64,000 nt of DNA from Candidatus Kapaibacterium sp. (lineage in GTDB: Bacteria; Bacteroidota; Ignavibacteria; Kapaibacteriales; UBA2268): assembly GCA_938031175.1 (NCBI GenBank), contig CALHGZ010000009.1, positions 1-64,000 on the forward strand, in the 5' to 3' direction. The position numbers were made by a program, and so were the translations under genes. The notes below the pieces were generated by a model. That model worked only from the letters and a program-made list of their open reading frames with translations. It had not been told where the DNA came from and ran no database searches. Positions 4,484 through 33,007 of this stretch are shown here, in pieces (the first letter of the stretch is position 1; every line of letters begins with the position of its first letter).

Positions 4484-5466
4484 TGATTAGCAAGATAAAA
4501 ATTGAAAAATACCAGGGATTTCTTTACTTCGTTTCAGTCATAGTCGGTATTTTAATTGGTGCTACTTATCCGGAATTTTCAAATTCGTTTGAGATAATCT
4601 TATGGCCTGTTTTGGCTTTTCTTCTTTATATTACTTTTTCTCAAATACCAATATCTCATATTCCCAAGGCTTATATTGACTATAAATTTATAACAGCTGC
4701 ATTAACTGGAAATTTTGTCTTGATTCCAATACTTGTAGCTATTTTAATTAACCTTGTAGGGTCGGACGATATTGTATTGAAATTAGGTATTGCATTAGTA
4801 TTGTTAGTTCCGTGTACTGATTGGTTTATAACGTTTAGCCATTTAGGTAAAGGAGATACAAAATACGCTGTGGCACTTGCTCCTATAATTTTATTTGCTC
4901 AGTTTCTGTTTTTGCCGATTTTTATATACTTAATGTTTGGTAAAAGCCTGACTTTTGATATTGCACAAGGGAAATTAATTGTAATCTTTGTATGGTTTAT
5001 TGCCATTCCTTTATTTACAGCTTTCATCACTCAAAAACTTGCCGAAAGACATAAATTTTGGAAAAATTCCCTAAATTTTTTGGAATGGTTGCCTGTGCCG
5101 CTATTAACTATAATAGTTTTTATAATTTTTAGTTCACAATTTCAGACTATTATCGCTTCACAAAATATTTTTGATATTTTAGTTACAGTATTTCTACTAT
5201 TTCTAATAATTTCAATATTTTTTGCAAAATTTCTCACAAAAATTTTCAAATTACCTACAGAACAAGGAAGGGTATTGGCTTTTAGCTTTGGTACAAGGAA
5301 CTCATTTGTAGTGTTACCGATAGCACTTGCTCTTCCTGAACAATATCAAACAGCAGTTGTGGTAGTGGCATTTCAGCCACTAATAGAACTTGTTGGAATG
5401 TTAATTTATATAAAAATTATACCGAATAAAATATTTAAAATGAAGGAAATTATTGTTGAAAAATAA
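4483..5466 (+). CDS. Arsenite/bile-acid:Na+ symporter superfamily exporter (ACR3-like)
   Basis: This protein of 327 residues has about ten membrane helices. The diagnostic segment is VPCTDWFITFSHLGKGD near residue 110, which corresponds to the conserved Pro-Cys-Thr motif of ACR3-type arsenite permeases and related 'arsenic resistance protein' members of the SBF/BART superfamily. A second conserved segment near residue 270 is SFGTRNSFVVLPIALALP. Family knowledge suggests a proton- or sodium-coupled inner-membrane transporter, with arsenite efflux the best guess. No arsR or arsC lies nearby, so the substrate remains open. I chose ATG 4483 because it overlaps the stop of the upstream fragment; an in-frame TTG lies 9 bases earlier. 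Confidence 0.75.
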   Translation: MISKIKIEKYQGFLYFVSVIVGILIGATYPEFSNSFEIILWPVLAFLLYITFSQIPISHIPKAYIDYKFITAALTGNFVLIPILVAILINLVGSDDIVLKLGIALVLLVPCTDWFITFSHLGKGDTKYAVALAPIILFAQFLFLPIFIYLMFGKSLTFDIAQGKLIVIFVWFIAIPLFTAFITQKLAERHKFWKNSLNFLEWLPVPLLTIIVFIIFSSQFQTIIASQNIFDILVTVFLLFLIISIFFAKFLTKIFKLPTEQGRVLAFSFGTRNSFVVLPIALALPEQYQTAVVVVAFQPLIELVGMLIYIKIIPNKIFKMKEIIVEK

Positions 5467-5534
5467 TTACAGCTGTATTTATTTTGTTTATAAAAATGTT
5501 ATCGCTTGATTTAACTATTCCTAATAGCAAGGGG

Positions 5535-5559
5535 GCAAATTATGAATATAATAATTTGC
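5535..5559 (+). terminator. Hairpin downstream of the ACR3-like gene
   Basis: GCAAATTAT and ATAATTTGC form a perfect 9-bp stem around a 7-base loop, 68 bases after the exporter stop codon. There is no good T-run, so it may be a weak terminator or an RNA 3'-end stabiliser. The rest of 5467-5787 is A+T-rich and shows nothing else. Confidence 0.4.
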
Positions 5560-5787
5560 TCAATTTCAAGATTTTCTAAATTCGAAAATAAAAATTTTGT
5601 GATCTACCCAAAATGCAAACTAAAACAAGCTTAAATATATTTGATATTCAAATTTGCAATTATTTATCATTTTATTAAGTAATTGATTTATCTTTGAATT
5701 AATCTCTTAAAAAAAATTTAATCTTTGTTACTATTTGCATTAACAATTAGATTTTGTAGATTGAAATAAATTTAGTATTTTAGAGTA

Positions 5788-5882
5788 TTATAGGTGATGG
5801 GGTTCACCTTAAACCGCAATAATGCTGATAACTCCTACCAAAATGTTATAAAAATTATTATTATTTTGTAGGAGTTATTTTC
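5788..5882 (+). promoter_or_regulatory. Fluoride riboswitch (crcB RNA) with overlapping expression hairpin
   Basis: The aptamer runs from about 5788 to 5840. GGTGATGGGGTTCACC (5793-5808) forms the first stem-loop, AAACCGC (5811-5817) supplies the pseudoknot strand, and GCTGATAACTCCTAC (5824-5838) closes it. These are the conserved blocks of the fluoride aptamer. Right after it, AACTCCTACCAAAAT (5830-5844) can pair with ATTTTGTAGGAGTT (5863-5876). That second hairpin uses the CTCCTAC strand of the aptamer and buries the AGGAG ribosome-binding site (5870-5874), which lies 8 bases before the antiporter ATG. A fold exclusive with the ligand-bound aptamer fits fluoride-induced expression. The short U-rich tail is a poor terminator, so control of translation is more likely. 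Confidence 0.93.
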
Positions 5883-7094
5883 ATGCTTAATATTTTTTCC
5901 ATTGCTAGTTTTTGGTTTTTTGCTGCGGTTTTATCAACAATTCTAGCCAATCGCTTAAAAATATCAATGGCTCTAATGGAAATAATCATTGGGGGGATAA
6001 TAGGATATGCAGCTTTCGAATTAAATTTCATAGAAAAACTTGATTTAAATGCAGATTGGCTGAGATTTTGCACAGGGGTTGGTGCTATTATGCTAACATT
6101 TCTGGCTGGAGCAGAATTAAATCCAGATGCAATGAAATCAAAACTAAAAGAGGTTTCGATAATTGGAATAATAGGTTTTTTTGCACCTTTTATGGGCTGC
6201 ACTCTTATAGCTTACTATTTAATTGGTTGGGATTTGAAAGCAAGTTTGCTAAGCGGTATTGCACTCTCCACAACCTCAATGGCAGTTGTTTATGCAGTGA
6301 TGCTTGAATATGGTTTTAATAAAACTGAATATGGTAAAGGAATATTAGGTGCTTGTTTTGTAAATGATTTAGGTACAGTTATAGGTTTGGGTTTATTATT
6401 TTCTCCTTTTAACTATAAGACAATTATCTTTATTTTAGTAATGATAGCTTTAATATTTGTTCTACCTAAAATAACTAATTTCCTTATACAACATTTTGCC
6501 TACAAAACTGCTGCAATCCGTACAAAATGGATCATTTTTGTACTATTGTCATTGGGAGTACTTTCTTTATGGTCAGGTAGTGAACCTGTTTTGCCTGCAT
6601 ATATAATTGGAATGCTTTTAGCAAGAACAATGGAAGAGGATCATCATTTTGTTAGAAGATTGAGAACTTTAACAGTTGGATTTTTGACTCCTTTATATTT
6701 TCTCAGAGCAGGTGCACTAATGTCAATACCTTCATTATTTTCCGCACCCGTAATTTTTATACTTCTTTTTTTGGGGAAGATAATTTCAAAAATTTTCGGT
6801 TTATATCCGGTTATAAGTAATTTCAGGAGTGATAAAAGGGAAAAATGGTATTACACTTTGTTAATGTCAACAGGTTTGACTTTTGGTACAATTTCAGCAT
6901 TGTTCGGACTTTCTCACAATATTATTAATCAGGAGCAATATTCCTATATTGTTGGGACAGTAATTGCAAGTGCCATTATACCTACTTTGATAGCCAATAA
7001 ATTTTTCTTACCTAAACATCTAATAGAAAAACCTGTCTTAGATGATCAGCTTCAGGATGAATTAGAGATGATAGAAAACAAAAAGCAATATTAG
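5883..7094 (+). CDS. Cation:proton antiporter (CPA/Kef-type, Na_H_exchanger family) under fluoride control
   Basis: This protein of 403 residues has about 12-13 membrane helices spread over its full length and a short acidic tail (residues 380-403). It belongs to the monovalent cation:proton antiporter fold (PF00999). Visible family features are a glycine-rich LTFLAGAELNPD segment near residue 75, the STTSMAVVYAVMLE helix near 130-145, and the ion-binding pair Asn-Asp in CFVNDLGTV near residue 160. An N-D rather than D-D pair is usually linked to electroneutral exchange. No RCK/TrkA-N regulatory domain is attached. Fluoride riboswitches are known to control Na+/H+ antiporters as well as crcB and eriC-F. 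Here the gene likely helps restore pH or ion balance when HF enters, or exports fluoride itself. The start is fixed by AGGAG 8 bases upstream. Confidence 0.87.
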   Translation: MLNIFSIASFWFFAAVLSTILANRLKISMALMEIIIGGIIGYAAFELNFIEKLDLNADWLRFCTGVGAIMLTFLAGAELNPDAMKSKLKEVSIIGIIGFFAPFMGCTLIAYYLIGWDLKASLLSGIALSTTSMAVVYAVMLEYGFNKTEYGKGILGACFVNDLGTVIGLGLLFSPFNYKTIIFILVMIALIFVLPKITNFLIQHFAYKTAAIRTKWIIFVLLSLGVLSLWSGSEPVLPAYIIGMLLARTMEEDHHFVRRLRTLTVGFLTPLYFLRAGALMSIPSLFSAPVIFILLFLGKIISKIFGLYPVISNFRSDKREKWYYTLLMSTGLTFGTISALFGLSHNIINQEQYSYIVGTVIASAIIPTLIANKFFLPKHLIEKPVLDDQLQDELEMIENKKQY

Positions 7095-14874: not shown

Positions 14875-15212
14875 TTCTAAGTTATAAATAGATTTAAAAT
14901 TGAAAAATTTATTGCTATCTATCTTTAATACAATGTTTAAGAATTATTCATTCATCTAAAGATAGTCTTTAAAGCCTATTTAAACAGAACATTATGAAAG
15001 AAATATATTTTAGAAAACAATATTGATTTTATGATAGGAATTTTGATGCAGTAGAAATAAAATTCAATAAATTTATTAATTATCGGTAAATTGGATTAAA
15101 AAAGTTTATGATATAAAAAATATTTTAATTTTAATAAGACTTTTCTTCAATGTTGATGGCAAATAAATTGGCAAGCGGAATCATATTTATAGATAGGGAA
15201 TTAAAATTTTTG
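14875..15212. other. AT-rich intergenic region
   Basis: No gene, repeat or strong hairpin was seen in these 338 bases between the decayed gene and the tRNA. Confidence 0.5.
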
Positions 15213-24988: not shown

Positions 24989-25417
24989 ATGGGACACTAC
25001 CTTGAGTTATTGCGTATAAAATTCTCAGAATCTGAGAAGGTCCCTTTATTCTCAATGTCGGTATCAGCAGGCAAACCGATACCTGTTGAAGATGATATCG
25101 AGATGGAGATTGATCTCAATGAATTTTTAGTGGAGCATCCTGCTTCTACTTTCTTTGCTCGTTTCCATAGCAATAATGAATCATTTGCTGGAATATCTAA
25201 TGGTGATCTACTTATAATTGATACTGCTATATCACCTAAAGATGGCAAAATCGTCGTTGTCGGATATAATAATGAAATCACCTTGAAAATATACCGTGTA
25301 ATTAATGGCGAGGAATTTTTCGAATCTTACGATGGTAAATTAATGACAAGGCAGATTGAACCTTTGATCGAGCTTAAATTGCTCGGGGTAGTAACTAAGG
25401 TTATTCACTCTCTATAG
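24989..25417 (+). CDS. UmuD-like protein with cleavage site but catalytic Ser replaced by Asn
   Basis: This S24/UmuD-family protein of 142 residues aligns without gaps to E. coli UmuD (offset 3, from memory of that sequence). PLFS, IDLN, HP, NGDLLIID, K-D-G and the final GVVTKVIHSL all fall in register. The self-cleavage position (Cys24-Gly25 in UmuD) is Ala27-Gly28. The general base Lys97 is Lys100. The catalytic Ser60 position (in GDSM) is Asn63, within SNNE. A Ser two residues later (Ser65) would require a gap. The protein therefore looks like a cleavable but inactive substrate. GGAGG precedes the ATG by 6 bases. It is followed after 23 bases by a second UmuD homologue with the opposite defect. 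Confidence 0.85.
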   Translation: MGHYLELLRIKFSESEKVPLFSMSVSAGKPIPVEDDIEMEIDLNEFLVEHPASTFFARFHSNNESFAGISNGDLLIIDTAISPKDGKIVVVGYNNEITLKIYRVINGEEFFESYDGKLMTRQIEPLIELKLLGVVTKVIHSL

Positions 25418-25440
25418 TTGAATAATTAGTTCAATAAATT

Positions 25441-25863
25441 ATGAGAGCTAGAAAAAAGGGAGCCATCAAAAAGAAATATTATTTCGAAGCGGAGTTATTT
25501 CCAGCATCCGTTCCATTGTCACTATCAAAGTTTGAACCGACATTGCAACAAATTGATCTGACAAATGTTTTGGCACCTCAGTCTAAAAATATCTACCTCG
25601 TGAAAGTTAACGGTGAAAGTATGATTGATGAGCATATTTACGATGGGGATATTCTCATTGTGGATAAAAATGAAGTGCCTAAGGATGGGTCAATAGTTAT
25701 CGCCGCTTTAAACGGAGAATTAACAGTAAAAACCTTTAGGATGATAGAGGGCAAACCTTATCTTTTCTCTGCGAATAAAAAGTTTTTGCCAATTGAAATA
25801 GGTGATTTAATGCAATTCGAAATACAAGGGGTTGTAAAACACGTAATTAAAAATCTTGTTTAA
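25441..25863 (+). CDS. UmuD-like protease with intact Ser-Lys dyad but Val-Pro at the cleavage site
   Basis: This S24-family protein of 140 residues happens to number exactly like E. coli UmuD: VNGESM places Ser60, and GELTVK places Lys97. The downstream strands (YDGDILIVD, IQGVVKHVIKNLV) are typical. At residues 24-25, where UmuD has Cys-Gly, it has Val-Pro (ASVPLS); a Pro after the scissile bond would normally block cleavage. The N-terminus is unusually basic (MRARKKGAIKKKYY). It should be an active peptidase unable to process itself. Its partner with an A-G site but no Ser lies directly upstream. Its stop overlaps the stop of the convergent dinB by 4 bases. Confidence 0.87.
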   Translation: MRARKKGAIKKKYYFEAELFPASVPLSLSKFEPTLQQIDLTNVLAPQSKNIYLVKVNGESMIDEHIYDGDILIVDKNEVPKDGSIVIAALNGELTVKTFRMIEGKPYLFSANKKFLPIEIGDLMQFEIQGVVKHVIKNLV

Positions 25864-26939
25864 AAATCAAGGCTTAGCTGGCTGGTTAATTTATCATCTT
25901 CATTCTTCAATGTGGAAAGTTGTAAACCTAGTAGTCTTACCGGTTTGACTGGTGCAACTGGAGTAAACAAAAGTTCTTTTGCTATTGTAAATAGTTCGTA
26001 TTCTGGATTAATAAGAAAATTAAAGGTTTTACTTCTTGTTTTGGTTTCAAAGTCGGAATAGCGGATTTTTAATGTTACAGTTTTGCCACGAAGATTTCTT
26101 TTTTTGATCCTATTAATCAAGATATCACATATACTTTTCAAAGCCTCGAGTAATTCATCCAGCTCAATTATGTCTTCGTCGAAAGTTCTTTCCGCACCTA
26201 TTGATTTTCGTTCATATTCAATTGTAACCGGACTAAACCATTGATTCCTAATAACTTTATAGTAATAAATTCCTGTTTTGCCAAAGAATTTAGTTAATTC
26301 TTCGAGAGAGAATTTTTTTAAATCAGCACCATTATAAATTCCTAACTTGTGCATTTTTCTCTCAGTGACTTCACCTATATATGGTATTTTCCCTATGGGT
26401 AATTTATCAATGAATTTATCAGCTTTTTCAGGTGGAATAACCATTAATCCATCTGGCTTTTTATAGTCGGAAGCAATTTTAGCTAAAAATTTATTAAATG
26501 ACACTCCGGCAGAAGCAGTCAATTTTGTTTGCTTTTTTATTTCAGCCTTAATTAATTTAGCAATAGTTGTTGCTGAAGGGATATTTTTTTTGTTTTGTGT
26601 AACGTCGAGATATGCTTCATCGAGAGACATAGGTTCGACAAGGTCAGTATATTCAAAGAAAATATTCATAATTTGCAGTGAAACTTCCCTATATACATCG
26701 AAACGTGGTTTTACAAATATTAATTGCGGGCATTTTTTCATTGCAATTACAGAGGGCATAGCTGAATAAATTCCGTATTTTCGGGCTTCATAGCTAGAGG
26801 CAGCTACAACACTTCTCCGCTCGGGATAACCAACAGCAACGGGTTTTCCTCTTAATTCTGGATGGTCTCTTTGCTCAATGGATGCAAAAAAAGCATCCAT
26901 ATCAATATGGATTATCTTATGACTATAAAGGTCATCCAA
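25860..26939 (-). CDS. dinB: DNA polymerase IV (DinB, Y-family)
   Basis: This translesion polymerase has 359 residues. Y-family motifs are HIDMDAFFASIEQ (11-23, first metal Asp), AASSYEARKYGI (about 46-57), and SLDEAYLDVT near 102-111 (catalytic Asp-Glu). The helix-hairpin-helix thumb region lies near 170-205 and the little-finger domain after about 235. The extreme C-terminus QLSLDF is a sliding-clamp-binding motif. It ends tail-to-tail with the second umuD-like gene (4-base overlap). It is downstream of the ADP-forming synthetase gene with 13 bases between, so it may be co-transcribed with housekeeping genes. No umuC is in the window, so this polymerase could be the partner of the UmuD-like pair. 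Confidence 0.95.
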   Translation of the reverse strand: MDDLYSHKIIHIDMDAFFASIEQRDHPELRGKPVAVGYPERRSVVAASSYEARKYGIYSAMPSVIAMKKCPQLIFVKPRFDVYREVSLQIMNIFFEYTDLVEPMSLDEAYLDVTQNKKNIPSATTIAKLIKAEIKKQTKLTASAGVSFNKFLAKIASDYKKPDGLMVIPPEKADKFIDKLPIGKIPYIGEVTERKMHKLGIYNGADLKKFSLEELTKFFGKTGIYYYKVIRNQWFSPVTIEYERKSIGAERTFDEDIIELDELLEALKSICDILINRIKKRNLRGKTVTLKIRYSDFETKTRSKTFNFLINPEYELFTIAKELLFTPVAPVKPVRLLGLQLSTLKNEDDKLTSQLSLDF

Positions 26940-26952
26940 TGAATTAATAGAT

Positions 26953-29010
26953 TTATAATTTTTTAACTTTTATTCTTGCATCGACTGTAATGATATTATT
27001 CCCTCGTGCGATTAATGGGTTTAAATCAAGTTCAATTATTTCGGGGGCTATTTGCAAAAGTGCAGAGGTACGATTGATTAGTTCAGCCCAACGATTTTCG
27101 TCAATGGGTTCCATACCTCTAATCCCTTTAACAATATCATAAGCATTTAACTTTCTAATCATTGATAAGCCTTCTTCAATTGACACAGGAGTAAGAGACG
27201 CTGAAAAATCTTTCATAATTTCGATGAAAATACCACCAAGTCCAGTAAGTATTATGTGACCAAAATTTTTTTCATATTTTGCACCTATAAATATTTCAGT
27301 GCCTGAATACATTGGCTGTAATAAAATAGCCCGTACTTTCGGTAGCTTTAATAATTTATTGAAGTTAATTTCTACTTCATCAGCTCCTTTAATATTTGTA
27401 ACAACTCCACCTATATCAGTTTTATGTATAGGTCCAACAACTTTCATAACTAATGGGTATCCAAGTTTTTCGGCTTCGACTAAAGCATCATCGAGATTAT
27501 GCACAACTGATTCTTTTGCGATTGGAATACCAGCGATATTGAGCAATTCATTAGAGGTTTGTGGACTAAGGAAACCATAAACTGAATTTTCAATAATTTT
27601 ACGAATTCCTTTTGAATCAATTTCGGGTAGAACTCCGTTTTCAAAGGGTTTATTGCTATTAAGAACTTTTGCTAATGCTGTACCGGTTAATACCTCATCA
27701 AAAAAGCATATATTTCCTAGATCTTTAAAATATTCAATTGCTTCGTGTGCTTGTATTACAGAAGGTAGGACAGAATATATCGGTTTTTTTGCAATTTTTA
27801 TTTTTTTGTCGAGAACTTTATAGGCATCTTTTACATCATATAAACCGGGAGTGCCAAATATAACAACTGAAGCATCAATATTATCAAATTTATTATCAAC
27901 ATAATCGAGAATTAAACCAAGTTGCTCGGGCGTACCGGTTGCAAGAAAATCAATTGGATTGGCTACTGAGGAGCCTGGATGTAATTTTTTTTGTAGTTCA
28001 TTTGCAATATTGCCTTCAATTAATGGAGTTGAGATTCCATTTTTATTTAAAACATCAACCAACATAACACCTGGACCACCGGCATGAGTAACAACTGCAA
28101 TATTTTTTCCTAAAGGTATTTTGTTCATTAATATACCAGCGGTATAAACCATATCAGTACGACCGTAGCATCTGATAATTCCGGCTTTGCTAAATAATGC
28201 GTCCACAGCAGTATCGGAACCAGCTAAAGCACCAGTGTGAGAAGAAACAGCTCTTGAACCTGCTTCTGTGGTGCCTGCTTTAATTGCAATAATTTTGCAT
28301 CCTTTTTTTACAAGGGAACGTGAATGATGAAGGAACAAGTCAGGCTTATTAATTTGTTCGAGGTAAATCAATTTGACTTTTGAGCTTTTACCTTCTATAT
28401 AATTTTCATCCCAGAATTTTAGGATTTCCTCAACTCCAATCCAAGCACTGTTTCCGACTGAGTATATAGAAGAAAATTTAAGTCCCATCTGGATAGCAGT
28501 TTCAAGGATGAAAACAGCAGTAGCTCCGGAACCAGTTACAAAATCACATCCGAGTGGATCCAATTTAGGTATAGGACCGGCAAAGACACCGGCGTAATTT
28601 GTATTGATAATTCCTATACAATTCGGACCAATCATCGTTGCATTGTTATCTCTGACTAAATTGACTAATTTCTTTTCTAATTCCTTGCCTTCTTTTCCGG
28701 TTTCGCTAAAGCCGGCGGATAAAACAATAAAAGCTTTTGTGTTTTTATATTTTACGAGATATTCCATAGCTTCCGGTATGAATTTTGCGGCTATTGCAAA
28801 AATAGCCAAATCTGTATCATCTACCTCTGCAACAGAGGAGAAGCATTGAATACCTTGCACCATTTTTTCTTTTGGGTTTATTGCTTTCAAAACTCCTTTG
28901 TAACCGCCATCGATAAGATTTTTAATTATTTTACCGCCAGGTTTTGTTAAATCATTTGAAGCACCTACTACAACAATACTTTTGGGGTCTAATAACTCAC
29001 GATTAATCAT
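26953..29010 (-). CDS. Acetate/acyl-CoA ligase (ADP-forming), fused alpha-beta subunits
   Basis: This is an NDP-forming acyl-CoA synthetase of 685 residues. The CoA-binding Rossmann domain starts with KSIVVVGASNDLTKPGG (9-25). IGPNCIGI (near 127) and VTGSGATAVF follow. SSHTGALAGS near residue 255 carries the phosphorylated His. The ATP-grasp part (about 470-685) shows GYPLVMKVVGPIHKTDIGGV and LTGLGGIF. Such enzymes convert acetyl-CoA, ADP and phosphate to acetate, CoA and ATP (substrate-level phosphorylation), or act on other acyl groups. Both subunits are fused in the alpha-beta order. It sits in a leftward block between the TOPRIM gene and dinB. sucD near 41 kb is a distinct relative. Confidence 0.9.
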   Translation of the reverse strand: MINRELLDPKSIVVVGASNDLTKPGGKIIKNLIDGGYKGVLKAINPKEKMVQGIQCFSSVAEVDDTDLAIFAIAAKFIPEAMEYLVKYKNTKAFIVLSAGFSETGKEGKELEKKLVNLVRDNNATMIGPNCIGIINTNYAGVFAGPIPKLDPLGCDFVTGSGATAVFILETAIQMGLKFSSIYSVGNSAWIGVEEILKFWDENYIEGKSSKVKLIYLEQINKPDLFLHHSRSLVKKGCKIIAIKAGTTEAGSRAVSSHTGALAGSDTAVDALFSKAGIIRCYGRTDMVYTAGILMNKIPLGKNIAVVTHAGGPGVMLVDVLNKNGISTPLIEGNIANELQKKLHPGSSVANPIDFLATGTPEQLGLILDYVDNKFDNIDASVVIFGTPGLYDVKDAYKVLDKKIKIAKKPIYSVLPSVIQAHEAIEYFKDLGNICFFDEVLTGTALAKVLNSNKPFENGVLPEIDSKGIRKIIENSVYGFLSPQTSNELLNIAGIPIAKESVVHNLDDALVEAEKLGYPLVMKVVGPIHKTDIGGVVTNIKGADEVEINFNKLLKLPKVRAILLQPMYSGTEIFIGAKYEKNFGHIILTGLGGIFIEIMKDFSASLTPVSIEEGLSMIRKLNAYDIVKGIRGMEPIDENRWAELINRTSALLQIAPEIIELDLNPLIARGNNIITVDARIKVKKL

Positions 29011-29047: not shown

Positions 29048-29572
29048 TTAGTGAATATACTCATTATAAAAATATGAAAAAGATTTATTTTTTTGTTTTG
29101 CTTTTTCAATTACATATAATTTTATTATTTCGTAGATAAAATCAATACGTGAGTTAAAACGACCATGGTACAAGCGGTTGAAATCTTCCTTGCTTAGATT
29201 GTCTGTATTTGTGAAATAATTTATATGTAGTGTTTCAGATGCAGTTTCATCCAAGCCTGCAAGGTACCAGCTCTCAATTTCTAGGACAACAATTATAATA
29301 TTTTCTTTTGCAAGTTGTTCAAATTTTTCGGAAAGCTTTTCTTTTTTTTGTTTAATGCTCAGGTATTCGTCTTTATCTGCGAAAAAAAGGTAATCAAAAT
29401 TTAGTGTTCTTATGCTCAATAAAAAAAGATTGACCTTATCTTTTTTCATTTGGGCATATTTGATTATCTCTATATTTTTATAATATTTACTTAAAATTGG
29501 AGTGATTAACTTTCGGAAAAAAATTTCATCATCATTACCTTCGACAAATAGATAAATTTTTTCTTTCGGCAT
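29048..29572 (-). CDS. TOPRIM-fold protein (DUF4276/DUF4435-like), partner of the adjacent ATPase
   Basis: This protein of 174 residues has TOPRIM-like features. LFVEGNDDEIFF places the conserved Glu at residue 11. FADKDEY gives the acidic D-x-D at residues 66 and 68. VLEIESWYLAG near 95-105 is a motif seen in the DUF4276/RloB-like families. These residues would bind a metal for nuclease activity. It starts one base after the stop of the upstream ATPase gene, so the two are translationally coupled. ATPase/TOPRIM pairs of this type occur in anti-phage systems (PARIS AriA/AriB, AbiL, OLD when fused). Its small size and weak similarity prevent assignment to one named system. Confidence 0.72.
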   Translation of the reverse strand: MPKEKIYLFVEGNDDEIFFRKLITPILSKYYKNIEIIKYAQMKKDKVNLFLLSIRTLNFDYLFFADKDEYLSIKQKKEKLSEKFEQLAKENIIIVVLEIESWYLAGLDETASETLHINYFTNTDNLSKEDFNRLYHGRFNSRIDFIYEIIKLYVIEKAKQKNKSFSYFYNEYIH

Positions 29573-29573
29573 A

Positions 29574-30839
29574 TTATAATTTCAATAAGTTATTGACGTA
29601 TAGCTCTTCTATCCCAATTTCATTTTTTAAGAAAACTTTTATTTGTTCAATTTCAGCAGGACGGTCAATAGTTGAAAATCCTCTTTCATTTCGTGAAATA
29701 AGCAAGAGGTTTTCAATATCAGCGTGTTTTACTGCTTCGGGATTATGGGTGCTGATAATAATTTGTTTGTTGGAGGATGCATCACGCATCATATCTATAA
29801 TTTTTGATATGAGATATGGATGTATCCGCCGCTCTGGTTCTTCGAATATTGCGCAAGGTTTATTTTCAAAGTAAATAGCAATAATTAATGCAATTATGAA
29901 TATTGTTCCATCCGAAATCATTGAGGACGGTATGAATTGGCCTTTAGCAAAGGATTCTTCGATTAGAAATTGTAAATATTTATCTAAAAAACTTTTGACC
30001 TCAATATTTTCAATAAGAGGTAAGACATTATTTACTAAATTAAAAAATGCACGCCTTTTTTCGATATCCGATAAAATTTTCCGCAGTACAATAGCTAAAT
30101 TTTCACCATTTTCTTCCAGTTCAGCTTTGCCTAAGAATTGTGTGGCTTTTTTTGGCAATCTTGTATCAAAATCGTACATTGAAATATTTTTCATAAAGTA
30201 GGCAATTTTCTCGAAAGGGAAGGTATATATCAAAGGCGATTCAATAATTAATGATTTATGTATCCTCTCATTTAGAAATTTTTGCATATCTGGAAGAGTA
30301 GGAAAGAGTTCATTTGCTTCTATCTTTTTGAGTTTGCTTTTGAAATTTATTTCATAGCTGTTTTTTAAGAGATTGATATATAGATTGGCAGTTCCGTAAT
30401 CAAAAGTCTTATTATCTTTTTTATATTCAATGAAGTGTAAGCCTGCTGTAAGCTCATCTTTAATGACATAATACGTATTATTTTTAAGATTTAGTTTTAT
30501 TTTAAAAGTATAATAGAAATTTTTGAGCTTAGCCTCTAATATTCCGATTTTGGTATTTCTTTTGATTCCATATTCCTTTAAAATATCAAATTTTAGGCCG
30601 AGTCCAACGATATTATTTCCTCTTTTCAAGTTGATATTTCTTAAATATTCATTACCTCCTTGAAGTGAGATAGCATTTTCCAAACCGAATTGGCTAATAT
30701 CTCTAATGAATTTAAATAGTTGCAATAGGTTAGATTTACCAGCGGCGTTAGCTCCTATTAATACATTAAATTTGCGCAGCTTTATATTGGCACGATGGAA
30801 ACTTTTGAAATTAGATATGCTTAATTGCGATATATACAT
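29574..30839 (-). CDS. ABC-type/OLD-like AAA ATPase (AAA_15/AAA_21)
   Basis: This protein of 421 residues has an SMC/ABC-like ATPase core split by a central insertion. The start ISQLSISNFKSFHRANIKL is the typical 'NFKS' strand. Walker A is GANAAGKS (29-36). MISDGT near 308 is the ABC-like signature, CAIFEEPERRIHP near 330-342 is Walker B with the catalytic Glu, and IISTHNPEAV is the switch His. This matches stand-alone OLD-family ATPases (COG4637/COG1106-like). The TOPRIM protein encoded one base downstream would complete an OLD-like nuclease complex in two chains. The gene begins 14 bases after the metG stop, which places a probable defence module inside a tRNA-synthetase operon. Confidence 0.82.
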   Translation of the reverse strand: MYISQLSISNFKSFHRANIKLRKFNVLIGANAAGKSNLLQLFKFIRDISQFGLENAISLQGGNEYLRNINLKRGNNIVGLGLKFDILKEYGIKRNTKIGILEAKLKNFYYTFKIKLNLKNNTYYVIKDELTAGLHFIEYKKDNKTFDYGTANLYINLLKNSYEINFKSKLKKIEANELFPTLPDMQKFLNERIHKSLIIESPLIYTFPFEKIAYFMKNISMYDFDTRLPKKATQFLGKAELEENGENLAIVLRKILSDIEKRRAFFNLVNNVLPLIENIEVKSFLDKYLQFLIEESFAKGQFIPSSMISDGTIFIIALIIAIYFENKPCAIFEEPERRIHPYLISKIIDMMRDASSNKQIIISTHNPEAVKHADIENLLLISRNERGFSTIDRPAEIEQIKVFLKNEIGIEELYVNNLLKL

Positions 30840-30853
30840 ATATATTCAGTATT

Positions 30854-33007
30854 TTATCTTACGTCAGCACCGGAATCAATATCAGATCTGTCAGGTACAA
30901 TAAGTGCTAATTTGCCGTTTTGCGTATTAGCAGCTAATAGCATTCCTTCAGAGATCTCTCCCATTAATTTTGTGGGCTTCAAATTTGCTACGACAACGAT
31001 TATTTTCCCAATCAATTCATTTATAGAATAATGTTCGGCAATTCCTGCAACAATTTGTCGCTTTGAGCCTTCAATTTCAATCTCTAACTTAAGCAATTTT
31101 TTTGCTTTTGGTAATTTTTCGGCTTTAATGATTTTAGCAGTTTTTAGTTGTATTTTAGAAAATTCATCGATTGTAATTAGATTATTGTTTTTTTCTGAAT
31201 CACCAGCTAATTTCTTAATTTGTTCTTCGATTGTTTGATCTTCGATCCGTGCAAACAATATTTTTGGGGCTTGTAATGAATGTCCTTCAGGAAGTTTGAA
31301 TTCTAATGCAGTACTCCAAATATCCTTGCCGGGTACATAGGAATTAACTCCGCCGGTATAATCGGGAATAGCTATTAATTTGTTGATTTTACTGCAAGTA
31401 AAAGGAATTACTGGAGTAAAAACGATTGATAAAGTTCTGATAAGTTGTGCTGATATAAAAAGTGATTTAGCGCACCTTGCTTTGTCATTTTTAAAAGTTT
31501 GCCAAGGCTCTTCGTCGTTAAAATATTTATTGGCGGCTCGGGCTACATTCATTGTCTCAGTTATAGCATCACGAAAACGAAAATTAGAATAATTTTTAGA
31601 TATATTAAAAAAGCAGGTTTTAAGTGTATCAATTAGTTGAATTTCGTTTTCATTCAAGAAGCCCTTCTTTTTATTTAAATCATTATTATCTAAATGAATA
31701 ATTTCGTTCCATATTTCAGGTAATTTTTTATCTTTTTCATCAAGGACAGGAACTTTGCCATCGAAATTTTTATGAATAAATTGGAGTGTTCTATTTATGA
31801 AATTACCTAAAATGTTTGCTAATTCATTGTTGTTACGATTCTGAAAATCTTTCCATGTAAAATCAGAATCCCTGGTTTCAGGTAAATTCATTGCTAAAGT
31901 ATAACGTAAGGAATCAACATAATCAGGGAATTCATTTAAAAAATCTTTTAAATCAATGCTCCAATTTCGGGATTTTGAGAATTTTTGTCCTTCAAGATTT
32001 AAGAATTCGTTAGCTGGTACATTGTGGGGTAATATGTATCCATCATTTTTTGCATAAAGTAATGCGGGGAAAATGAGTGTATGGAATACAATGTTATCTT
32101 TACCGATAAAAGCAATATATTTAGTATCAGGATTTTGCCACCATTTTTTCCAATCCTCGGGATTTTTATCCTGATAATAATGCTTTGTTGCAGAAATATA
32201 ACCCAATACAGCTTCGAACCAAACGTACAGGACTTTTCCAGCAGTTTTTTCAGGAGCTAATTTATCTATGCCATCGAGTTTTATTCCCCAATTGAGGTCT
32301 CTTGTGATTGGACGTTCGCTAAGTCCTTGCTTAAGCCAGCTTCGGGATTGCTGTAAGACATTTTCTTTCCAATATGATGCTTTGCTTTCAATATAATCTT
32401 CCAAAAATTTTTGGAAATGATTGAATTGCATATACCAATGTATAGTTTTTTTAGCTATTGGTGGTTTGCCAGAGACTAGGCTTATAGGGTTTTTCAATTC
32501 GAGCTGATTATAGTAAGCTCCGCAATTGTCACATTGATCACCCCGAGCTTTTTCATATCCACAGTTTGGGCATGTACCCTCGACGTATCTATCAGGCAAG
32601 AACATTTTGGCATATTCATCATAGAATTGTTCTTCTTCACGTTCAACGAGATAGCCCTTTTGTAAAAAATCTTCAAAAAATTCACGTGCAGTGTGATGAT
32701 GCAAGTCGAGTGAAGTGCGGGAGTATATATCAAAGCTCATTCCAAATTTAGCAAAGGCGTTTTCATTCGCATGATGATATTTATCAATAATTTGTTTTGG
32801 TGTTACTTTCTCTTTTTCGGCAGCAATAGTAATTGCGACGCCGTGTTCATCAGAACCGCATACCCATAGTACATTTTCACCTTTCATTCTTAGATAGCGT
32901 ACAAATATATCCGCTGGTAAATAGGCACCAGCACAATGCCCCAGATGTAGATAACCATTTGCATAAGGTAAAGCTGAAGTTATTAGATAATTACTCATAT
33001 TACTCAA
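30854..33007 (-). CDS. metG: Methionine-tRNA ligase with C-terminal tRNA-binding domain
   Basis: This is a class I synthetase of 717 residues. The HIGH-type motif is LPYANGYLHLGH (14-25). Four cysteines of the zinc knuckle, CPNCGY...CDNCG, are near 144-160, and the KMSKS-type loop is KFSKS near 341. The anticodon-binding helical domain follows, and residues from about 615 to the end form an EMAPII/Trbp111-like OB domain (IVAGIAEHYSINELIGKIIVVVANLKP) that dimerises and binds tRNA. All parts are intact. A second ATG three codons in (32998) is an alternative start. It is the first gene of a leftward run continuing into the ATPase/TOPRIM pair. Confidence 0.96.
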   Translation of the reverse strand: MSNMSNYLITSALPYANGYLHLGHCAGAYLPADIFVRYLRMKGENVLWVCGSDEHGVAITIAAEKEKVTPKQIIDKYHHANENAFAKFGMSFDIYSRTSLDLHHHTAREFFEDFLQKGYLVEREEEQFYDEYAKMFLPDRYVEGTCPNCGYEKARGDQCDNCGAYYNQLELKNPISLVSGKPPIAKKTIHWYMQFNHFQKFLEDYIESKASYWKENVLQQSRSWLKQGLSERPITRDLNWGIKLDGIDKLAPEKTAGKVLYVWFEAVLGYISATKHYYQDKNPEDWKKWWQNPDTKYIAFIGKDNIVFHTLIFPALLYAKNDGYILPHNVPANEFLNLEGQKFSKSRNWSIDLKDFLNEFPDYVDSLRYTLAMNLPETRDSDFTWKDFQNRNNNELANILGNFINRTLQFIHKNFDGKVPVLDEKDKKLPEIWNEIIHLDNNDLNKKKGFLNENEIQLIDTLKTCFFNISKNYSNFRFRDAITETMNVARAANKYFNDEEPWQTFKNDKARCAKSLFISAQLIRTLSIVFTPVIPFTCSKINKLIAIPDYTGGVNSYVPGKDIWSTALEFKLPEGHSLQAPKILFARIEDQTIEEQIKKLAGDSEKNNNLITIDEFSKIQLKTAKIIKAEKLPKAKKLLKLEIEIEGSKRQIVAGIAEHYSINELIGKIIVVVANLKPTKLMGEISEGMLLAANTQNGKLALIVPDRSDIDSGADVR

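Follow-up and report, generated by a model that had tools for sequence, protein, structure and literature searches.

On the minus strand of the window, by which we mean the whole 64,000-nucleotide stretch of DNA analysed here, genes for an OLD/RecF-like ABC ATPase and for a small, stand-alone predicted TOPRIM nuclease follow one another within a gene series that runs from metG through this pair to an acyl-CoA synthetase (ADP-forming)-like gene and then to a gene for a Y-family polymerase (Table 1). The ATPase and TOPRIM reading frames are separated by a single base (29573), and 14 bases (30840-30853) lie between the end of metG and the start of the ATPase gene, with no terminator predicted between metG and the pair. 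Downstream, 37 bases separate the TOPRIM gene from the acyl-CoA synthetase-like gene, and 13 more intervene before the polymerase gene. The coordinates, motifs and the 1-base and 14-base spacings given in a first-pass annotation of this DNA proved exact to the base. We also observed two tandem S24 (UmuD/LexA-like) peptidase genes (24989-25863) facing the polymerase gene (25860-26939), the end of which overlaps the second peptidase gene by 4 bases.

Table 1. Genes and predicted functional residues at the ATPase-TOPRIM locus, with positions in the window
Feature	Positions	Strand	Basis or remark
metG (methionyl-tRNA synthetase), upstream neighbour	30854..33007	-	Adjacency to the pair specific to this genome
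OLD/RecF-like ABC ATPase (AAA_21), 421 aa	29574..30839	-	ORF; AAA_21, AAA_15 and HEC-01A profiles
Walker A GANAAGKS, ATPase residues 29-36	30732..30755	-	Sequence; family alignment
Walker B CAIFEEPE, ATPase residues 329-336	29832..29855	-	Family alignment
H-loop His365 of ISTHNPE, ATPase	29745..29747	-	Family alignment
Stand-alone TOPRIM nuclease (predicted), 174 aa, DUF4276/OLD-like	29048..29572	-	ORF; profile comparison
TOPRIM Glu11 (metal A, predicted), with Asp15 (metal B, predicted) at +4	29540..29542	-	Conservation; BpOLD E400/E404
TOPRIM D66-x-D68 motif	29369..29377	-	Conservation; BpOLD D455/D457
TOPRIM E98-x-E100 of EIESW, predicted metal B	29273..29281	-	Conservation; BpOLD T506/E508
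TOPRIM Lys128, possible counterpart of the catalytic K562 of BpOLD	29189..29191	-	Conservation; equivalence inferred
Acyl-CoA synthetase (ADP-forming)-like gene, downstream neighbour	26953..29010	-	Adjacency to the pair otherwise only in genome G025

The GC content of the pair is 29.1%, compared with a window mean of 31.9% (rank 14 of 104), and this somewhat AT-richer composition is not decisive as to a horizontal origin. No noteworthy repeats or attachment-like sites flank the pair, the sole tRNA gene of the window lies at 15212, and the genes listed for the 64,000 nucleotides include no signs of a mobile element.

The ATPase is readily assigned, with 98 bits to Pfam AAA_21 (cut-off 27) and 67 bits to AAA_15. 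Walker A residues G29, N31, G34, K35 and S36 and Walker B residues E333, E334 and P335 are conserved in at least 97% of 72 family members and, with the H-loop, give the protein the ABC ATPase motifs of the OLD family in the broad sense. Its best match in the defence-model library is PADLOC HEC-01A, at 161 bits over the whole length, a score read without PADLOC's own thresholds.

The window's TOPRIM protein falls under every Pfam cut-off, its weak best matches being DUF4276 (PF14103; 21.4 bits, below the gathering cut-off of 30.2), DUF3226 and OLD-like TOPRIM. We therefore rely here on a profile-profile comparison, for which the query was an alignment (A3) of 50 family TOPRIM members. This comparison returned a probability of 97.9% for six DUF4276 proteins from related genomes and 81.7% for ten OLD C-terminal regions, against 0.2% for an unrelated ATPase alignment used as a control; DUF4435 proteins, represented by two sequences only, gave 12.5%. 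By this measure the predicted TOPRIM homology of the small protein is confirmed, upholding the similarity first proposed from the letters of the sequence. A search of the PDB with the TOPRIM protein, as a single sequence and as a profile, gave no relevant match. Pfam scans detected no RloB match in the window TOPRIM or its relatives, and no DUF4435 match in the window TOPRIM; one of 50 relatives matched DUF4435, at E 0.0015. Among the defence models, HEC-01B is matched by 49 of the 50 family TOPRIMs, weakly but consistently (E 1.8e-10 in the best relatives), and by the window protein at 21 bits, with E 4.7e-5 over roughly half of the model's length; the window protein reaches 15 bits to AriB. 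The first-pass annotation could name no type matching a 174-residue TOPRIM partner with housekeeping flanks; there is indeed no exact fit, but HEC-01 is the nearest type and the length is normal for a family in which most loci encode about 166-194 residues.

The class 2 OLD nuclease BpOLD uses E400, E404, D455-x-D457, T506-x-E508 and K562 (PMC6755086). Across 91 TOPRIM sequences of the present family, E11, G12, D66, E98, E100, W102 and K128 are invariant and D15 is found in 90, whereas position 68 holds D in 69 sequences and N in the other 22. The family thus has the invariant Glu and the DxD (DxN in those 22 relatives) that characterise OLD family TOPRIM domains in the broad sense. Since EIESW and FVEG served as search patterns when the loci were collected, the invariance of these two stretches is partly circular; E, D, ExE and Lys recur at these positions in DUF4276 proteins found independently, with the Lys invariant in the DUF4276 alignment. 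Set against the residues of the BpOLD site, E11, D15, D66-x-D/N68, E98-x-E100 and K128 appear to match all of the class 2 OLD two-metal positions, a correspondence that is complete at the level of the pattern and in which K128 would be the counterpart of K562.

We scanned 84,980 species genomes and kept 80 loci, which come from a wide range of phyla in both Bacteria and Archaea. With few exceptions the ATPase gene lies immediately upstream of the TOPRIM gene, most often at a distance of -4 to +16 bases, and the pairwise distances of the two proteins correlate strongly (Mantel r 0.90, a value reached in 0 of 1000 permutations). The ATPase and TOPRIM genes co-diverge and form a conserved operon. 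The presence of orthologues in both bacteria and archaea, the recurrent ATPase-TOPRIM order and the AAA_21 score together indicate that the pairing is more than chance. Four of the 80 loci (L166, L093, L101 and L138) had no ATPase gene within the fetched stretch. L166 starts close to a contig end, and the genomes of the other three (that of L093 being G006) encode an orthologous ATPase elsewhere, without an adjoining TOPRIM gene, so that these apparently solitary TOPRIM genes were rejected as orphans. The separate loci are L093 with L226, L101 with L225, and L138 with L061 and L224; the L138 genome has the same ATPase locus as G022. Mis-binning is possible in these cases, but the unlinked genes lie within contigs beside other neighbours. 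L101 and L138 have some TOPRIM neighbours in common. Two further arrangements were seen alongside the family: genome G003 carries a canonical DUF4276-ATPase pair (L177, 413-2148) in addition to a distant family member, and several relatives of the window's genome encode single-chain OLD-like ATPase-TOPRIM proteins (L212-L221).

Within the window's own phylum the pair is rare. The TOPRIM gene was found in 7 of 394 genomes, a strong orthologue is present in a minority among the 60 nearest genomes, and conservation across the phylum in the manner of a housekeeping gene, which would have refuted the reading of the first-pass annotation, was not found. In the ATPase tree the window's family makes up a single supported clade (100/98) of 13 rows, within which the long branches are uncertain. 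For four of its genomes (G010, G001, G019 and G034) the branching matches the MetG tree, which suggests some vertical descent; G007 and G028, the nearest genomes to the window in that tree, both lack the pair. Going by gene names assigned by eye, the pair is located in different relatives between an accC-like and a gcvH-like gene, downstream of an MgtC-like or a symporter gene and, in G001, G019 and G034 alike, downstream of the gene for a large TPR-like protein; only in the window and in G025 is it upstream of an acyl-CoA synthetase gene. Besides that of the window, 30 metG loci were compared, and the pair is absent from all of them. We also looked for a relative with the two flanking genes side by side and no pair in between, but metG and the acyl-CoA synthetase gene are not adjacent in any relative examined. 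Given the varied locations and the 30 other metG loci without the pair, its position next to metG is incidental.

A different pattern of inheritance is seen in the archaeal Methanoregulaceae, where 76 of 108 genomes contain the TOPRIM gene, almost always as a single copy (three of the matches are weak or partial). In about 24 species of Methanoregula the pair occupies one locus, with TspO-like and FprA-like genes on either side and Trk and nitrogenase-like genes nearby (genes named by eye from their sequences), and the other genera of the family that were sampled have different, recurring loci. Between Methanoregula species both genes show a dN/dS of about 0.07-0.22, which slightly exceeds that of the flanking metabolic genes, and their dS is broadly similar to that of the flanking genes. 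The pair in Methanoregula is thus inherited vertically at one locus and is under purifying selection. The gene is missing from 32 of the 108 genomes, some of them perhaps incomplete, which speaks against the pair being essential throughout the family. We note that an FprA-like (F420H2 oxidase/flavodiiron) gene repeatedly follows the pair (L135, L140 and other Methanoregula loci; L200, L201 and L203), including in deeper-branching relatives, and a link to oxidative stress through this neighbour is possible.

The pair is nearly absent from mobile elements. Two TOPRIM queries found no match in 50,697 phage records and three found none in 72,556 plasmid records; a canonical DUF4276 protein used as a control matched 12 plasmids and no phage records. 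Among 2.9 million viral contigs (IMG/VR) a single one, L176, carries the pair (4733-6525), between ssb-like and RuvC-like genes and with a terminase-like gene downstream; by analogy with the old gene of P2, this copy could possibly be a superinfection-exclusion cassette. Of the families that could be recognised in 138 genes neighbouring diverse members, most belong to metabolism, and there are few matches to PADLOC defence models (E <= 1e-15), counts that stand without a matched random-gene control.

The reading best supported by these data is that the pair is a split OLD, that is, a TOPRIM nuclease gated by a separate ATPase. It draws on the family assignment, the class 2 OLD site pattern, the intact Walker A, Walker B and H-loop motifs, the operon and the correlated divergence of the two proteins. 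In such a scheme the ABC ATPase would oligomerise and either restrain or position the small TOPRIM nuclease until a trigger, perhaps an aberrant or foreign nucleic acid or a protein of an invader, is encountered. Nucleotide binding or hydrolysis would then free or align the two-metal TOPRIM site, which would nick or cut DNA or RNA. In the window's organism, a Kapabacteria-like bacterium, the pair is most likely an accessory module of an immunity type, exchanged and lost over evolutionary time, which would have landed in a housekeeping transcription unit and, given that no terminator is predicted after metG, is probably expressed by read-through. We consider this explanation as a whole, a split-OLD nuclease serving as an accessory immunity module, to have about an even chance of being right. 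An immune role is favoured by the folds, by the rarity and patchiness of the pair in the window's phylum and by the phage-borne L176, and agrees with the character of the named relatives that pair an ATPase gene with a TOPRIM gene, which either serve in defence or combine a toxin with its neutraliser (PMC12409363, PMC10440598); the accessory distribution follows from the few phylum genomes with the pair and its absence from G007 and G028. Weighing against the explanation are the mostly metabolic neighbours with few PADLOC matches, the lack of a match in phage or plasmid records where the DUF4276 control hits 12 plasmids, the vertical inheritance at one locus under purifying selection in Methanoregula, and the three genomes with unlinked genes, which would be unusual for a module resembling a toxin-antitoxin system.

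Much of this contrary evidence would be expected if the pair were instead a resident nuclease for genome maintenance or the cell cycle. Like the archaeal OLD protein Cran1, it would have the same ATPase-gated TOPRIM chemistry but direct it at the DNA of its own cell, and dependent lineages would pass it on vertically. There is a precedent for this in Cran1 itself (PMC12796447), and the prevalence and recurring loci in Methanoregulaceae, the low dN/dS with a dS broadly like that of flanking genes, the retention of both genes though unlinked in three genomes, the near absence from mobile elements and the metabolic gene context all point in the same direction. The rarity in the window's phylum, the Methanoregulaceae genomes without the gene, the one phage-borne member and the fact that the nearest relatives by profile are defence candidates point the other way. 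We thus slightly favour accessory immunity and regard the resident function, though somewhat less probable, as a serious rival. The two may also be combined: we tentatively suggest that a split OLD-type ATPase-TOPRIM pair could have been domesticated in the Methanoregulaceae as a near-core, vertically inherited nuclease for genome maintenance or stress, and retained even when unlinked in three other genomes, in which case one family would span both an immunity-like accessory and a resident function.

A stricter version of the immunity reading, with which it overlaps, is an abortive-infection pair of the HEC-01 or PARIS type, in which the TOPRIM protein would be a toxin, for example a tRNA nuclease, that the ATPase keeps sequestered until a phage protein sets it free. 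The HEC-01A score of the ATPase and the near-universal HEC-01B matches of the family TOPRIMs speak for such a pair, as does the example of AriB, which is released from AriA and cuts tRNA (PMC12409363). We nevertheless think it unlikely in view of the weak scores of the window TOPRIM to HEC-01B and AriB, the low probability for DUF4435 in the profile comparison (from those two sequences only) and the unlinked genes in three genomes, an arrangement that would be costly with a free toxin. Finally, the first-pass annotation had suggested that the pair could be kept silent in the metG operon or be tied to translation stress. Such a functional metG setting, with methionine charging as a further possible stress, was rejected as very improbable, since the 14-base spacing on the same strand is all that favours it, no relative has the pair at metG, homologues adjoin unrelated genes and there is no sign of either silencing or coupling.

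What is new here is the near-core archaeal branch and the three unlinked cases, rather than the window locus itself. Pairs of an ATPase and a TOPRIM protein are usually classed as phage defence; this family has the folds of defence systems and yet, in Methanoregulaceae, is inherited like a resident gene, in most genomes, in single copy and nearly absent from mobile elements. With Cran1 as a precedent, the family offers a direct test of whether such nucleases pass from immunity to cell maintenance or back, and it shows that folds alone are a poor ground for assigning every ATPase-TOPRIM pair to defence.

Compared with systems already named, the pair is nearest to PADLOC HEC-01, a candidate defence system made up of an AAA ATPase and a DUF4276-like protein, which has the same gene pair and folds; the differences lie in the weak score of the window TOPRIM and in the lack of a defence-island context here. 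In the literature collection that we searched, HEC-01 and DUF4276 gave no result. PARIS (AriA/AriB; OLD class 4), in which AriA forms a hexamer that keeps AriB sequestered until a phage trigger is met, likewise consists of adjacent, separate ATPase and TOPRIM genes, but AriB has a DUF4435 TOPRIM domain and the window TOPRIM has no DUF4435 match, so strict membership in PARIS was rejected; moreover, OLD class 4 has been reported from bacteria only (PMC12796447), whereas the present family is abundant in archaea. The same two-gene layout is found in AbiL (AbiLi/AbiLii) and in other NetFlax ATPase-TOPRIM pairs, which act as toxin and neutraliser (PMC10440598). AbiL differs in its AbiLii/RloB-type TOPRIM, and the ATPase fits AbiLi (80.6 bits) less well than HEC-01A. 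In the case of MADS, the ATPase reaches 86 bits to mad3 and 15 of the 50 family TOPRIMs match mad4, but the ATPase remains below the NCBIfam MAD3 cut-off (127 against 420) and the window has no MADS operon. The class 2 OLD proteins GajA, BpOLD and XccOLD share the pattern of E, E/D at +4, DxD, xE of ExE and Lys; they are single chains, with a UvrD-like partner in Gabija, whereas here the two domains, which in the OLD family typically share one chain, are split. No UvrD-like helicase was found adjoining the pair, and this absence, together with the two chains, rules out its identity with Gabija. With Cran1 (OLD class 5, Sulfolobales) the pair has in common an OLD chemistry (predicted for the pair), an ExE motif, vertical conservation within an archaeal lineage and the lack of a defence-like spread. 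Class 2 OLD proteins and Cran1 cut or nick DNA, and Cran1 requires its ATPase to do so (PMC12796447); Cran1 is, however, a single chain that is not deletable in its hosts and has a conserved membrane-protein partner gene, a partner that the two-chain window pair lacks. The original view of an OLD-like ATPase with a stand-alone TOPRIM protein, as in PARIS, AbiL and MADS, and with an exact fit to no named type, therefore stands, and on the basis of sequence comparison the pair would best be described as a split OLD that is close to HEC-01 and distinct from both PARIS and Gabija.
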